Shown: positions 31,469 through 54,874 of the stretch, one piece after another
Numbering within the stretch: position 1 is the first letter of the stretch
Layout: each line of letters starts with the position of its first letter
Assembly: GCA_013289765.1 (NCBI GenBank)
Contig: JABCZI010000010.1
Coordinates: 124,001 to 188,000, forward strand
Direction of reading: 5' to 3'
DNA length: 64,000 bases
From: Acidobacteriota bacterium
GTDB lineage: Bacteria > Acidobacteriota > Terriglobia > Terriglobales > Acidobacteriaceae
Position numbers and translations under genes: made by a program
Notes under the pieces: generated by a model
Seen by the model: only the letters and a program-made list of their open reading frames with translations
Database searches by the model: none
Told to the model about the DNA's origin: nothing

Positions 31469-33373
31469 TTGCGCCTATCAAACTTAACTACGGGTCTTCT
31501 GTTTGCGGTGAGTGCGCTCGGAATGGGTGCGCTCGGAATGGGTGCGCTCGGTTCGACGAGCATGTACGGTCAGTCGATCCGTCTACGTGTGGACCTCACT
31601 GACGCTCCTCGTAATCTTTATCATGCCAAGCTGAACATTCCAGCCAGGCCGGGCACAATGACGCTGGTATTTCCGAAATGGATTCCAGGGAATCACCGTC
31701 CCAGCGGCCCGATCGCTGCGCTCACCGGCATCCACATGGAAGCGGCCGGGCAGCCCTTAAAGTGGGAGCGAGACCCGCTCGATATGTACGCCTTCCACGT
31801 TACGGTACCTGATTCGGTGCGCGTGATTGACGTTTCCCTGGACGCGATTACTTCCAACGACAGCGCAGGCGGCGCAGGGCCGGCAGCTTCCAGCAATCTG
31901 CTCGATCTGAACTGGAATGCTGTCGTTCTGTATCCGCAGGGCGTCGAGTCCGACGCGGTCGAGTTTGTTCCGTCGGTCAAACTTCCGGCCGGATGGAAGT
32001 ATGGAACTGCGCTGGTGTCGGCGCACGTGTCCGGCGATGAAGTCGAATTCGCTCCGGTTTCGCTGACTACGCTGGTGGATTCTCCTCTAATCGCGGGTGC
32101 GCATTATCAGCGAATTAATTTAACTGACTCCGCCGATAAGCCCCAACACTTTATGGATGTGGTCGCCGACAATGAAACCGATCTGGCGATGAAGCCGCAA
32201 GAGCTTGCGGCGTACCGGAAGTTGGTGGCGGAAACCGGCGCTCTGTTTGGCGCGCGCCATTACCGGCAGTATCACTTTTTGTACACACTTAGCGATCAAG
32301 TCGGCGGACATGGACTCGAGCACCATGAATCCAATGACAGCGCCGCCGCCGAACGTACGCTGCTCGATCCCAATCTGCACCTGCTCTACGCCGATCTTCT
32401 GCCTCATGAATTTGCGCATTCGTGGAACGGGAAATATCGCCGTCCCGCCGGCCTCGCCACCCGCAATTATCAGGAACCAATGATTGGCGATCTTCTGTGG
32501 GTTTACGAAGGGCTCACTGACTATCTCGGCATTCTCCTCGCGGAACGCAGCGGACTTTTATCGGCCGAACAATATCGCGAAGGCTTGGCCGCAACGGCAG
32601 CCAGCCTCGATCACCGCTCCGGAAGAAGTTGGCGTCCACTCGAAGACACTGCGCGCTCCGTGCAGATCCTGCGATTGATGGGACCGCAGTGGTCGAGCTG
32701 GCGCCGCGGTCTCGATTACTATCCCGAGGGCGAATTGATCTGGCTGGAGGTTGATTCCATCATCCGCGAGCAGACCAAGGGCCAGCGCTCTCTCGACGAT
32801 TTCTGCCGCCGCTTCGAGGGCGGACAGAGTGGATCGCCAATGGTTGTGCCTTACACGCTTGACGATGTGGTCCATGCACTCAATGACGTCGCTCCGTATG
32901 ATTGGGGGAAGCTGCTTGGGGAGCGTGTAAGTTCGACCGTCCCCCACGCGCCGCTGGGCGGGATCGAGCGCGACGGGTGGAAACTCGTATACAACGATCA
33001 GCCAAATGTCTTCAGCAAGGCGATCGAAAAATTGTTCAAGTCCGCTGACTTTTCTTATTCGCTCGGATTCACTCTCGCTGAAGATGGCAAGTTTAATGAT
33101 GTGATTGTGGGCTCTCCCGCCTATCAATCGGGAATCGGCCCAGGCATGACGTTGATTGCAGTGAACGGTCGTAAATGGACCCCCGCAATCATTCGCGCCG
33201 CGCTAAAGGCTGCGCAAGGAACCGTAGCGCCCATTGAACTGCTGGTTGAAAACGCCCAGTTCTATCAAACCTATTCCGTTTCGTACCACGAAGGCGAGCA
33301 GAACCCGCACCTGGAGCCCGTCTCCGGGCAGCCCGACCGCCTCTCCATCCTGCTCACCCCGCTGAGCAAATGA
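31469..33373 (+). CDS. M61-family glycyl-aminopeptidase-like metalloprotease with PDZ domain
   Basis: 634 aa from TTG. The signal peptide (residues about 5-32) contains a repeated ALGMG element caused by two tandem 15-bp DNA repeats. The N-terminal beta domain starts IRLRVDLTDAPRNLYHAKL. The zinc site is LPHEFAHSWNGKYRRP (HEFAH, about 312-316), with the downstream Glu in LLWVYEGLTDYLG, as in M61. A PDZ domain follows (about 525-605, YSLGFTLAEDGKF and SPAYQSGIGPGMTLIAVNG). It is exported and probably clips N-terminal Gly/Ala residues of peptides; the substrate is unknown. Confidence 0.9.
   Translation: MRLSNLTTGLLFAVSALGMGALGMGALGSTSMYGQSIRLRVDLTDAPRNLYHAKLNIPARPGTMTLVFPKWIPGNHRPSGPIAALTGIHMEAAGQPLKWERDPLDMYAFHVTVPDSVRVIDVSLDAITSNDSAGGAGPAASSNLLDLNWNAVVLYPQGVESDAVEFVPSVKLPAGWKYGTALVSAHVSGDEVEFAPVSLTTLVDSPLIAGAHYQRINLTDSADKPQHFMDVVADNETDLAMKPQELAAYRKLVAETGALFGARHYRQYHFLYTLSDQVGGHGLEHHESNDSAAAERTLLDPNLHLLYADLLPHEFAHSWNGKYRRPAGLATRNYQEPMIGDLLWVYEGLTDYLGILLAERSGLLSAEQYREGLAATAASLDHRSGRSWRPLEDTARSVQILRLMGPQWSSWRRGLDYYPEGELIWLEVDSIIREQTKGQRSLDDFCRRFEGGQSGSPMVVPYTLDDVVHALNDVAPYDWGKLLGERVSSTVPHAPLGGIERDGWKLVYNDQPNVFSKAIEKLFKSADFSYSLGFTLAEDGKFNDVIVGSPAYQSGIGPGMTLIAVNGRKWTPAIIRAALKAAQGTVAPIELLVENAQFYQTYSVSYHEGEQNPHLEPVSGQPDRLSILLTPLSK
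31514..31549 (+). repeat. Tandem 15-bp repeat in the M61 signal peptide
   Basis: CTCGGAATGGGTGCG occurs twice in tandem, followed by a partial third copy (CTCGG). It encodes LGMGA units within the hydrophobic core of the signal peptide, so copy number changes the helix length by five residues without breaking the frame. Confidence 0.75.
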
Positions 33374-47830: not shown

Positions 47831-47936
47831 ATTGTTGATTCTTGATTGTTGATTGCTGATTTGAGGAGCGCTTCCAACCCTGATGCGTTAGATCTTCAAT
47901 CAACAATCGCTGAATCACCAATCAACAATTTCTTTT
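47829..47936. repeat. Paired inverted heptad arrays (TTGNTGA), ORF-less, between aroB and ubiE
   Basis: Left array 47832-47866: five consecutive 7-bp units beginning TTGTTGA, TTCTTGA. Right array 47896-47931, inverted: units of the same consensus, one of 8 bp. The outermost 12 bp (AAATTGTTGATT, 47829-47840, and its complement 47920-47931) are perfect inverted repeats. The interior is 29 bp. The ensemble has the same architecture as the arrays around the S23 ORF at 54.0-54.5 kb. Confidence 0.8.
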
Positions 47937-52473: not shown

Positions 52474-52541
52474 GCAGTTGCTCTTCGCACGGGCCCTGAT
52501 TCCCGTTGGCGCAATTCTTACTAACCAGCGATAATCCCAAG

Positions 52542-53972
52542 ATGTCCGGGACGCCGGTCCTTTACTCGCCTCACGCCATGCGCGCCGAGAAGCGCGCGGT
52601 CGCCGGAAATTCCGTGGTGGCAGCCTTTCTTATCACGGGCGCAAAAATCGCCGTTGGCATAACCACCGGCAGCCTCGGAATCCTTACAGAAGCGGCGCAC
52701 TCGGCACTTGATCTGATTGCGGCCATGCTGACTTATTTCTCGGTCGGAGTCTCCGACAAGCCCGCCGATGCCGACCATCAATACGGCCACGGCAAAGTTG
52801 AAAACTTCTCCGCCTTCGTCGAAACCGGACTGCTTCTCCTCACCTGCGCCTGGGTCGTTTACGAAGCCATCGTGCGCCTGTTCTTCCGCCGGGTTGAGGT
52901 CGAACCTTCGGTATGGGCCTTCGCCGTCATGCTGATCTCCATGGCCGTGGACTACTGGCGCTCGCGCGCGCTGGCCCGCATCGCGACCAAATATGACAGT
53001 CAGGCCCTCGAAGCCGACGCGCTGCACTTCTCTACCGACGTCTGGTCCGCGGGCGTCGTCGTGCTGGGTTTGCTGCTGATCCTGCTGGGACGTATTTATC
53101 ATCTGGACCGCCTCCGCCTGGCCGATCCCGTCGCCGCCCTTTTTGTCGCAGGCGTGATCGTTTCCGTGAGCTGGCGGCTGGCGCGCCGCACCGTCGACGC
53201 TTTGCTGGATGCCGCTCCCGCCGGCGTCCGCGTTCAGATCATCGACGCGGTCTCGCGGGTCGACGGCGTCCTTGAAATCGGGCGTGTACGAATTCGCCGC
53301 GCCGGCAACCGCTATTTCGCTGATCTCGCCGTCGGCCTGGCTCGCACCGTAACTTTCCAGCGCTCCGAACAGTTGGTGGAAGCGGTGACCGCCGCGGTGC
53401 ACAGTATTCTTCCCGACGCCGACGTCACCGTGCAGCCGCTACCGCGCGCCGAGCGTTCGGAAAATATCTTCGATCGGATTCGCGCCGTTGCGACTCGACA
53501 CAACCTGAACGTCCACGATATCAGCGTGCAAGACCTTGCCGGACAGCTGCACGTCGAACAGCATGTGGAACTCGACGAACGCATGACCCTCAAGAAGGCG
53601 CACGACCAGGTCACCGACCTCGAAGCTGATATGCGCCGTGACGTTCCTGAGATCGCCGACATCCTTACTCATATCGAAAGCGAGCCCGCCACCATCGAAA
53701 CCGGCGACGAACTAGTCCGCGACGCCAGCCTCGAGCGCCAACTTAAAGAGGCTGCCGGGCAGTTTCCCGAAATAATCGACACCCACGATATTCAGATCAA
53801 GAAAGTTCGCGGCCGCCTCTACGTCTCCTGCCACTGCACGCTCTCGGACGATATGCCCCTCGCCCGCGTTCACGATATCCAGACCGAACTTGAAATCCAT
53901 TTCAAACAGGCCGCGCCGGAACTTTTCCGTGTATTGATTCATCCCGAGCCCAGCACGGACAACCGCAGGTAA
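52542..53972 (+). CDS. Cation diffusion facilitator (CDF) transporter with three C-terminal modules
   Basis: 476 aa from ATG 52542; TTG 52506 and ATG 52578 are alternatives and none has a clear Shine-Dalgarno. Six membrane helices hold the metal-site motifs EAAHSALDLIAA (H/D) and ALEADALHFSTDVWS (D/H/D). The cytosolic part contains three successive modules of about 75 residues, each of the ferredoxin-like dimerisation type: about 235-305, 318-392 and 398-470. Usual CDF proteins have one. It exports Zn2+, Fe2+, Co2+ or Ni2+ in exchange for protons. Confidence 0.9.
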   Translation: MSGTPVLYSPHAMRAEKRAVAGNSVVAAFLITGAKIAVGITTGSLGILTEAAHSALDLIAAMLTYFSVGVSDKPADADHQYGHGKVENFSAFVETGLLLLTCAWVVYEAIVRLFFRRVEVEPSVWAFAVMLISMAVDYWRSRALARIATKYDSQALEADALHFSTDVWSAGVVVLGLLLILLGRIYHLDRLRLADPVAALFVAGVIVSVSWRLARRTVDALLDAAPAGVRVQIIDAVSRVDGVLEIGRVRIRRAGNRYFADLAVGLARTVTFQRSEQLVEAVTAAVHSILPDADVTVQPLPRAERSENIFDRIRAVATRHNLNVHDISVQDLAGQLHVEQHVELDERMTLKKAHDQVTDLEADMRRDVPEIADILTHIESEPATIETGDELVRDASLERQLKEAAGQFPEIIDTHDIQIKKVRGRLYVSCHCTLSDDMPLARVHDIQTELEIHFKQAAPELFRVLIHPEPSTDNRR

Positions 53973-54019
53973 TGACGTTGTGACATCCGTCACAGACAAT
54001 CACCGGCTCTAACCCGAAG

Positions 54020-54054
54020 ATTGATGATTGTTGATTGGTGACTGCTGATTTCGG
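54020..54054 (+). repeat. Left heptad array (TTGNTGA) of the S23 element
   Basis: Five 7-bp units (54020-54054) beginning TTGATGA, TTGTTGA, then a G-variant, a CTGCTGA and a degenerate TTTCGGA. The order of variants mirrors the array at 47832-47866. The last unit supplies the GGAG that serves as ribosome-binding site for the S23 ORF. Confidence 0.8.
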
Positions 54055-54065
54055 AGAAACAAACG

Positions 54066-54476
54066 GTGGATCATAAGGCTGAGGTCCTGAAGGATCGAAG
54101 CAAGAAGTTTGCACTGCGGATTATCCAGGTGATTCGCTCCTTGCCACCTGGGATTGAAGGACGGACTATCGGTCATCAACTACTGCGCTCAGGCATCTCT
54201 GTCGCCGCCAATTATCGCGCCGTGTGCCGTGCTCGGTCGCGAGCGGAATTTCTGGCGAAGCTATCAATCGTAATAGAAGAAGCCGACGAATCTGCTTTTT
54301 GGCTGGAACTACTAGTTGACGCCGGGCTGATATCGGAGTCTAAACTCAAGGATCTCAAATCCGAAGCCAATCAATTGGTTGCGATCTTCAACGCGTCAAG
54401 AATTACCGCCAGAAAAGGTTCTCAATCAGTAATCTGCAATCAAAAATCAGCAATTCCGCAGAAGAGGGCAGGATGA
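54066..54476 (+). CDS. S23-family four-helix-bundle protein (23S rRNA intervening-protein type), repeat-bracketed
   Basis: 136 aa from GTG 54066 (GGAG 9 nt upstream). The S23/IVP pattern is clear: KKFALRIIQVIRSLPPGIEGRTIGHQLLRSGISVAANYRAVCRARSRAEFLAKLSIVIEEADESAFWLELL, read in pieces as helices at about 8-24, 31-52, 57-75 and 78-100. It is the family of the avd-like and 23S rRNA intervening-sequence proteins, whose function is unsettled. The last 20 residues (from GSQSVICNQKSAIPQ) are the translated right repeat array. The stop overlaps the osmC start by 4 nt. It sits between inverted heptad arrays. Confidence 0.85.
   Translation: MDHKAEVLKDRSKKFALRIIQVIRSLPPGIEGRTIGHQLLRSGISVAANYRAVCRARSRAEFLAKLSIVIEEADESAFWLELLVDAGLISESKLKDLKSEANQLVAIFNASRITARKGSQSVICNQKSAIPQKRAG
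54421..54457 (-). repeat. Right heptad array of the S23 element, inverted
   Basis: Read on the minus strand: TTGCTGA, TTTTTGA, TTGCAGA, TTACTGA, TTGAGAA. It lies inside the 3' end of the S23 reading frame and closely follows the right array between aroB and ubiE (shared framework TCAATCA..AATC....AATCA..AATCA.CAATT). Confidence 0.78.
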
Positions 54477-54874
54477 CCGAAGCTAAAACAACCTGGATAG
54501 AAAAACAGCGCTTCAACGGCATCGCCACCAGCGGCCATTCGATCGTGGTCGACGGCGATAAAGCTGCCGGCAATAGCCCGATGGAACTGGTTCTCATCGG
54601 CCTCTGCGGCTGCACTGGCTACGATGTCGTCTCCATTTTGCAGAAGAAGCGTGAGCCCTTTGCCAGCCTCGAAGTTCGCGCTGAGGCCGAGCGCGCCGCC
54701 GAGCCACCAACCGTCTACACGGAAATCAAGCTGATCTACCGCGTCGGCGGGAAAGTATCGCGAAAGGCTGTCGAAGACGCGGTCCGCCTGTCGAAAGAAA
54801 AATATTGCTCCGTCTCCGCCATGCTCGCCAAGACCGCAAAGATCACTTTTGAAATCGAATACGTGGATCAGTAG
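54473..54874 (+). CDS. OsmC-family protein
   Basis: 133 aa. Landmarks are FNGIATSGHSIVVDG, the N-terminal strand pair, and MELVLIGLCGCTGYDVVSIL with the first redox Cys, LEVRAEAERAAEPPTVYTEI, and KEKYCSVSAMLAKTAKITFE with the second Cys. OsmC/Ohr proteins reduce organic peroxides with a Cys pair. Its ATG overlaps the S23 stop (ATGA), so its translation now depends on the repeat-borne ORF. Length and fold are typical. Confidence 0.92.
   Translation: MTEAKTTWIEKQRFNGIATSGHSIVVDGDKAAGNSPMELVLIGLCGCTGYDVVSILQKKREPFASLEVRAEAERAAEPPTVYTEIKLIYRVGGKVSRKAVEDAVRLSKEKYCSVSAMLAKTAKITFEIEYVDQ

Follow-up and report, generated by a model that had tools for sequence, protein, structure and literature searches.

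Why should a short S23-family gene that stands between a CDF cation efflux gene and an OsmC gene be enclosed by two arrays of 7-bp repeats, one the inverted complement of the other? The locus lies in the window, the whole 64,000-nucleotide stretch analysed here (C10:124001-188000 of a 4.8-Mb genome), which a first-pass annotation had described as carrying an S23-type ORF within inverted period-7 arrays, a candidate minimal mobile or repeat-propagating element. Arrays and ORF were borne out by TRF and by the TIGR02436 and PF05635 profiles, and the parts of the locus are as follows.

52506..53972, + strand: CDF cation efflux gene, upstream neighbour outside the element (profile search)
53979..53994, no strand: TGTGACATCCGTCACA, CRP-box-like palindrome 5' of the left array (read by eye)
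54020..54054, + strand: left heptad array of ATTGNTG units, about 4.6 copies (sequence and TRF)
54053..54056, + strand: GGAG bordering the left array, likely ribosome-binding site (by eye)
54066..54476, + strand: S23 / four-helix-bundle ORF with GTG start, 136 aa (TIGR02436, PF05635, structure model)
54421..54457, - strand: right heptad array, inverted, within the last codons of the ORF (sequence and TRF)
54473..54874, + strand: OsmC gene, downstream neighbour outside the element (profile search)
47831..47931, no strand: ORF-less palindromic array with the heptad of the window element, between aroB and ubiE; candidate non-autonomous derivative

We consider it probable that the window element belongs to a widespread kind of minimal mobile element whose S23 protein guides host enzymes, and that this element has array-only derivatives and includes the intervening sequences (IVSs) of rRNA.

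Anatomy of the window element

TRF places the period-7 arrays at 54019-54050 (4.6 copies) and 54423-54454. The left array reads ATTGATG, ATTGTTG, ATTGGTG and ACTGCTG, followed by ATT, and the right array is its inverted complement but more degenerate. The ORF runs through the right array, and its stop codon overlaps the ATG of OsmC. The GGAG site, which had been attributed to the left array, does abut it by eye. With at most one mismatch, TTGNTGATTGNTGA occurs 10 times in the window, against 0.27 expected. The array near 47.83 kb had been described as lacking the ORF and as sharing with the window element the order of its unit variants; we likewise find no S23 gene there, but by eye the two have in common just the final unit ahead of the GGAG-like motif. 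This ORF-less array (47.83-47.93 kb) is predicted to form a strong RNA hairpin (z -5.67); the minimum-energy RNA fold of the whole window element is unexceptional (z -0.09). We also note a perfect 15-bp tandem repeat, GTGCGCTCGGAATGG, present in 2.7 copies at window positions 31512-31551 and unrelated to the heptads.

The encoded protein matches both family profiles well above their cut-offs (TIGR02436, E 5.6e-25 and 87.7 bits vs 24; PF05635, E 1.5e-16 and 60.9 bits vs 33.8) and falls in a divergent subfamily without the NIAEG motif. Its structure model has four helices (pLDDT 92.8), with best PDB matches to the S23 proteins 2rld (TM 0.88) and 2gsc, each of five chains. The next matches, among other four-helix proteins, include Avd, the accessory protein of diversity-generating retroelements (DGRs), which has its fold in common with S23 (8ub7, TM 0.81; 4dwl, TM 0.80) at about 10% identity and a Foldseek E of 0.016-0.03; a resemblance of PF05635 to Avd is also reported (PMC10053308). 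Pfam and NCBIfam searches of the ORF revealed no catalytic or transposase domain, and there was no Y1 (HuH) match at E 0.001.

Inverted heptad flanks across S23 genes

Flanks were scored by aligning the left 250 bp of a locus to the reverse complement of its right 250 bp, and a locus was called positive at a score of at least 15. PF05635 is present in 33 of 41 genomes of the window genome's relatives, and once partial and contig-edge matches were excluded, 30 of these 33 S23-bearing genomes supplied an acidobacterial set of 88 S23 loci. Inverted matching flanks occur at 83 of the 88, compared with 0.9% of 340 controls shifted by 850-1000 bp and 7.4% of up to 2000 draws that paired left and right flanks of different loci. 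Among the best 80 of at least 569 S23 loci in a scan of GTDB contigs, 79 had enough flank (L207, with a short flank, was left out), and 65 of these are positive, vs 4.3% of 279 shifted positions; L234, which is the same locus as L070, is counted in the 65 of 79 and left out of the period-7 array test and later tests. This more demanding test found period-7 arrays in both flanks at 67/88 acidobacterial and 56/79 GTDB loci (the latter again from the best 80 of at least 569), or 123/167 pooled, against 1/308 shifted controls, and of the periods from 4 to 14 compared at the acidobacterial loci only 7 and its double stand out.

S23 genes with array-less flanks in relatives had been named as the observation that would count against the mobile reading, and such genes are few: five of the 88 acidobacterial loci score below 15, as do 14 of the 79 from the best 80 of at least 569 GTDB loci, and even the stricter array test is passed by 67 of the 88. 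Some passing loci align without clean heptads (for example L085, L261 and L267). At least one positive S23 locus was found under 19 of 22 taxon labels in the GTDB best 80 of at least 569, including one of two Methanophagales archaea; these labels come from record titles and do not all denote phyla. An S23 gene set in inverted heptad arrays is thus a real and general observation, and our search of the literature, which covered titles and abstract openings with subscription papers mostly outside its scope, found no description of S23 genes as being generally flanked by inverted heptad arrays.

Enclosure of this kind is rare among other genes. In 464 kb of the window genome, six of 376 score at least 15 and three have period-7 arrays in both flanks. 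The highest-scoring control gene (score 37), at L299:11546-12034, is Y1-transposase-like (RAYT-like), although its 22.2 bits fall slightly short of the Pfam cut-off of 23. Its inverted flanks match over 57 bp, which makes it a positive control for the flank test, and it is possibly a resident REP system in the window genome. The second (score 24) encodes a molybdopterin-binding oxidoreductase and has no heptads.

Heptads are private to each element and change in concert

Eight S23 matches in the window genome fall into six genes, of which two are broken. Flanks that match in inverted orientation enclose every one of the six (scores 17-29), and five pass the two-sided array test. Read by eye, their heptads are CTTCCGG, AGCTGTC, CTTCGGG, GTCGTTG, ATTGNTG and AATTAGC. 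What recurs is therefore a rule and not a single repeat, namely an S23 gene within inverted heptads, with each heptad private. The TTGNTGA heptad on which the first-pass annotation had centred is not the general unit: other S23 genes, in this genome and elsewhere, use other heptads.

With heptads read separately from each flank at the 123 loci, the two flanks agree at 6.06 of 7 positions in inverted orientation, against 3.47 in direct orientation and 3.65 between loci, and they match at 6 or 7 of 7 positions in 80% of loci vs 2.8% between loci. The left-hand unit contains AG at 92 and CT at 42 of the 123 loci, so the arms have polarity, and the commonest form of the heptad is AG-K-N-N-Y-Y. Arms are mostly of four to five units, although the count was made in a search window of four units, which favours four; some arrays contain octads (by eye). 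The element has a median length of 471 bp, with the middle 80% at 431-609 bp (145 loci measured). Arrays far beyond five units, up to 26-27, occur at L066, L212, L307 and L310, and that of L307 alternates AGGTGAC and AGGGAAC units.

Among 188 pairs of loci that share flanks, which are not independent of one another, an arm resembles the opposite arm of its own locus more closely than its counterpart at the other locus in 134 and less closely in 11; the unit is common to both arms even where loci at a shared site have come to differ in it. The units therefore change in concert. S23 protein identity tracks heptad similarity, also among loci with unrelated flanks; the correlation is small (rho 0.13), and none of 500 permutations reaches it. 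The order of units agrees between the two arms of one element at 0.861, vs 0.841 when shuffled, with 59 of 90 loci above and 30 below. We rejected strict selection for RNA pairing between the arms, given this weak agreement in unit order and the ordinary minimum-energy fold of the window element.

Gene and arrays insert as one unit

S23 genes were found on 22 plasmid records; a search of a phage collection gave no match. Plasmids of Trichormus variabilis and Scytonema carry S23 with its arrays where plasmids of Aulosira, Nostoc carneum and Microchaete that are about 97% alike have neither, and a Nostoc plasmid (C052) keeps a decayed remnant at this site. Three plasmid sites are clean. At the first, L309 and L317 are occupied (the left array of L309 has two units more) and L313-L315 are empty; at the second, L325 and L330 are occupied and L323 is empty; at the third, further on, L323 is occupied and L325, L327 and L330 are empty. 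None of the empty sites has an array, which makes the arrays part of the insert and not its target, and we regard insertion of S23 gene and arrays as one unit as well supported. Nostoc ATCC 53789 has two paralogous plasmid operons in which S23 elements differ both in heptad and in position, so that each operon serves as the other's empty site, and elements 78-81% alike are found at different places in L325, L321 and L309. The empty partner is also without arrays in the more diverged pairs L308/L319 and L305/L320. The pairs L324/L328 and L321/L329 are not clean, and L307/L318 has another insert at the same place. Inverted runs and an S23 gene that arrive together on some plasmids point to a very simple jumping gene.

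The target overlap at the three clean sites, read by eye, is 5 bp, 3 bp and none, and a test for target duplication at 133 loci was positive in 17% vs a null of 13% (p 0.078). Target duplication is thus not consistent, and the claim of a fixed length, considered at 8 bp and then at 5 bp for two plasmid sites and 4/5 for the third, was withdrawn. One of these candidate duplications, TTCTA, looks element-derived, since L321 ends in those letters.

Chromosomal sites tell more of residence. The annotation had proposed a comparison of occupied with empty loci; at the clean plasmid sites this supports insertion as a unit, and within the genus it meets mostly old residents. Of 37 pairs of S23 copies at least 80% identical within the genus, 36 have flanking DNA in common on one side or both, which indicates that most copies are old residents and not recent jumpers. 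At the CDF/OsmC site we took 40 regions, 36 of which show both genes; 26 of these have 6-59 bp between the matches, seven have S23 (one degraded) and three have another ORF. These three small ORFs (L143, L145 and L156), at the position of the window's S23 gene, look related to each other by eye. At this site the similarity of S23 copies is out of step with that of their flanks: G048 has flanks of 78-86% and an S23 of 54%, and G020 flanks of 65-80% and an S23 of 83%. Among 20 relatives viewed by eye at the aroB/ubiE site, eight have a heptad array (apparently a single arm in L201), two an eroded one and 10 none. Site components built by single linkage proved too loose and were excluded from our claims.

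Where sites are shared, fourfold positions have diverged further in S23 than in the neighbouring genes in 209 of 223 pairs, and at the CDF/OsmC site those of S23 approach saturation between clades. On these two grounds recent homing between species found no support. S23 evolves faster than its neighbours (identity 67% vs 86%), so recent homing does not account for the shared sites. The same intergenic site holds S23 elements in opposite orientation at L081/L082 and L039/L041 (both flanks in each pair) and at L103/L109 (one flank only); either inversion across the arms or independent insertion would account for these cases.

Such residence speaks for a reading in which S23 is not mobile but a gene of the cell that regulates itself through its arrays, as binding site or hairpin, and owes its spread to horizontal transfer and recombination of the ordinary kind. 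Sites within the genus are mostly shared, the protein is conserved in the window's lineage with fourfold sites near saturation, and a CRP-like box lies upstream at 19 of 87 loci (see below). We nevertheless hold this explanation to be improbable given the occupied and empty sites in near-identical plasmids, the S23 genes found inside unrelated gene clusters (e.g., cas10/cmr3, nrdB/nrdA and TraM) and the ORF-less palindromes elsewhere in the genome.

ORF-less arrays tend to match resident S23 genes

A double TTGNTGA pattern occurs 22 times in the window genome, vs nine for a reversed-pattern control, and by eye many of these occurrences are palindromes with a short middle, several of which begin with a GGAG-like motif. 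A de novo scan of 464 kb of the genome recovered six ORF-less palindromes, with none in shuffled sequence and one direct pair at that setting; the scan is small and threshold dependent, and at the loosest setting direct pairs (8-12) outnumber inverted ones (3-5). Five of the six palindromes have a heptad that matches the unit of one of the genome's six S23 genes (null 0.22, p 0.0055). Array counts in genomes with and without the matching S23 have medians of 42 vs 7 for one heptad (5 vs 40 genomes, p 0.0013) and of 44 vs 6 for GTCGTTR (8 vs 17 genomes, p 0.0003), the latter in the 25 of 45 genomes whose S23 units were inspected; the S23 locus is itself part of the counts. Cross-matched controls are also mildly positive (p 0.036 and 0.025), and the genomes are not phylogenetically independent. 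The match among protein type, array type and array number is thus supported statistically, and array-only palindromes with the heptad of an S23 element may be non-autonomous derivatives used in trans. Arrays that existed independently of the ORF and in random number had been named as a contrary outcome; arrays without the ORF do exist, but as palindromes, six in all, that tend to match the S23 types of the genome.

The numbers of arrays without S23, seen both as patterns and as palindromes, could also mean that the inverted arrays are true mobile repeats moved by another enzyme, such as a Y1/RAYT transposase, with S23 as a passenger or an array-binding regulator. Y1 transposases are common (33/41 relatives and 29/33 of those bearing S23), and the S23 ORF has no catalytic domain that we could find. 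Even so, we think it quite unlikely that another enzyme is the mover: with inverted flanks under 19 of the 22 taxon labels in the GTDB best 80 of at least 569, the passenger would be nearly universal, while other genes are rarely enclosed (6/376), protein type and heptad type co-vary, though weakly, and G025 has four S23 matches and no Y1 match.

Relation to known repeats and rRNA insertions

In the REP/RAYT system, a gene is flanked by inverted repeats, and dispersed array-only palindromes are matched to the resident gene. The S23 system resembles REP/REPIN with RAYT in both respects, since the S23 gene lies in inverted repeats and dispersed array-only copies tend to match the resident S23 (six palindromes, two heptads), but S23 has no Y1 domain match, and its repeat, a heptad array, varies between elements. 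The earlier suggestion that the ORF drives the spread of arrays by REP/RAYT logic accordingly stands in part: gene and arrays do insert as one unit at occupied plasmid sites, and array-only palindromes do accompany a matching S23 gene, but a role of the S23 protein itself as the mover would be hypothetical, and Pfam and NCBIfam detect no transposase domain in it.

Intergenic arrays of the heptad TAACTGA have been described from Beggiatoaceae, cyanobacteria and Bacteroidetes, with possible horizontal spread by a mechanism that was not evident (PMC4679880). They resemble the S23 arrays in being intergenic 7-bp direct-repeat arrays; they differ in that 169 sets are direct and one is indirect, and neither "s23" nor "four helix" appears anywhere in the main text of that report (PMC4679880). 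S23 elements may offer an origin for orphan heptad repeats.

There is also a close likeness in anatomy to the 23S rRNA IVS. That of Coxiella burnetii has an S23-family ORF, 428 nt and 28-bp terminal inverted repeats, with two or three GACAGAT heptamers and a degenerate one upstream of the ORF in strain-dependent number; older ideas of the IVS as a mobile element are cited there, and S23 is probably not made in Coxiella (PMC4990558). Like the window element, it thus combines terminal inverted repeats around an S23 ORF with heptamers; it differs in lying within 23S rRNA and in its decaying ORF, and the available part of that report describes heptamers upstream only and not for S23 genes elsewhere (PMC4990558). 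The S23 family is also reported from 16S and 23S insertions of CPR bacteria (PMC11270868). The window element is not in 23S rRNA but between CDF and OsmC genes, and none of 60 GTDB S23 loci scanned, from the best 80 of at least 569, has an rRNA match. Since the anatomy of the IVS recurs at most of the 167 S23 loci, the IVS is likely one landing of a general element: an S23-bearing IVS would be an S23 element that landed in rRNA, and rRNA intervening sequences would be one landing site among others rather than a curiosity.

How a single small protein may sustain the element

We hypothesize an element of ~430-610 bp, made up of a left heptad array, an S23 gene and an inverted right heptad array, in which S23, a four-helix bundle of the Avd fold, probably binds its own heptad array in RNA or single-stranded DNA. 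The protein would then guide host enzymes that copy or insert the element, for the most part between genes of one direction and in the sense of their transcription. That S23 recognizes its own heptads is likely on indirect evidence, because protein and heptad co-vary and the related Avd is part of a ribonucleoprotein. Each S23 subunit may take about one heptad unit; the numerical fit of five-chain S23 structures to arms of four to five units is no more than suggestive. TRAP proteins bind spaced NAG triplets, an arrangement that resembles the proposed fit of S23 to its array. A common protein family of unknown function thereby gains a testable partner in its own heptad array, and S23 suggests that a protein without a known catalytic domain can sustain a mobile element.

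We found no support for the idea that S23 requires a reverse transcriptase or a Y1 enzyme encoded in its own genome, as 13 of the 33 S23-bearing genomes have no RVT_1 match and four (G022, G025, G031 and G034) no Y1 match. The first of these counts, which includes the near-complete G019, G011, G025 and G039, also bears on a route at the RNA level, in which the arrays would pair in the transcript, RNase III would free the element, S23 would pack the RNA and a reverse transcriptase would restore DNA. RNase III does excise the Coxiella IVS (PMC4990558), the Avd fold occurs in DGR reverse-transcriptase complexes, the ORF-less palindrome is predicted to form a hairpin, and S23 has a strong sense bias, being co-directional with both neighbours at 92 of 138 loci and opposed to both at six (neighbours taken as the longest open frames). 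Moreover, all 20 relatives with RVT_1 have S23, and RVT_1 is found in 0 of 8 without S23, a pattern confounded by family and genome size. We still find the RNA route unlikely given the genomes without RVT_1, and the sense bias may mean no more than that S23 depends on read-through for its expression. No reverse transcriptase was found among the scanned neighbours of the window S23 gene, and the one RVT_1 match of the genome is on another contig, C2.

A wider generalization from S23-guided movement by host enzymes is one that we offer tentatively, as possible rather than probable. S23 elements may form their own class of autonomous mobile element across bacteria and an archaeon, whose sole protein, a small pentamer of the Avd fold, would read AG-containing heptads at about one unit per subunit while host enzymes do the copying; a lineage would maintain its private heptad through concerted change of the two arms, and rRNA IVSs and at least some orphan heptad repeats would be landings or relics of the class.

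Regulation and CRISPR neighbours

The palindrome upstream of the window element has counterparts at other loci. TGTGAN6TCACA with at most one mismatch, a CRP-box-like sequence, lies within 250 bp upstream in the acidobacterial set at 19 of 87 S23 loci, in most cases at a distance of 80-115 bp from the S23 domain; there are 0 within 250 bp downstream and 0 in 171 shifted controls, and 0 at 76 GTDB loci (best 80 of at least 569) under the same mismatch limit. S23 copies with this palindrome may be under a CRP/FNR-type regulator.

On cyanobacterial plasmids, S23 elements also lie within CRISPR gene clusters (cas6/cas4 and cas10/cmr3, in L307, L308 and L310), where they could give false gene-to-CRISPR associations. 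A screen for genes in the vicinity of CRISPR systems names the S23 family in one of its figure legends (PMC10910872), and S23 elements in cas clusters may explain its appearance there.
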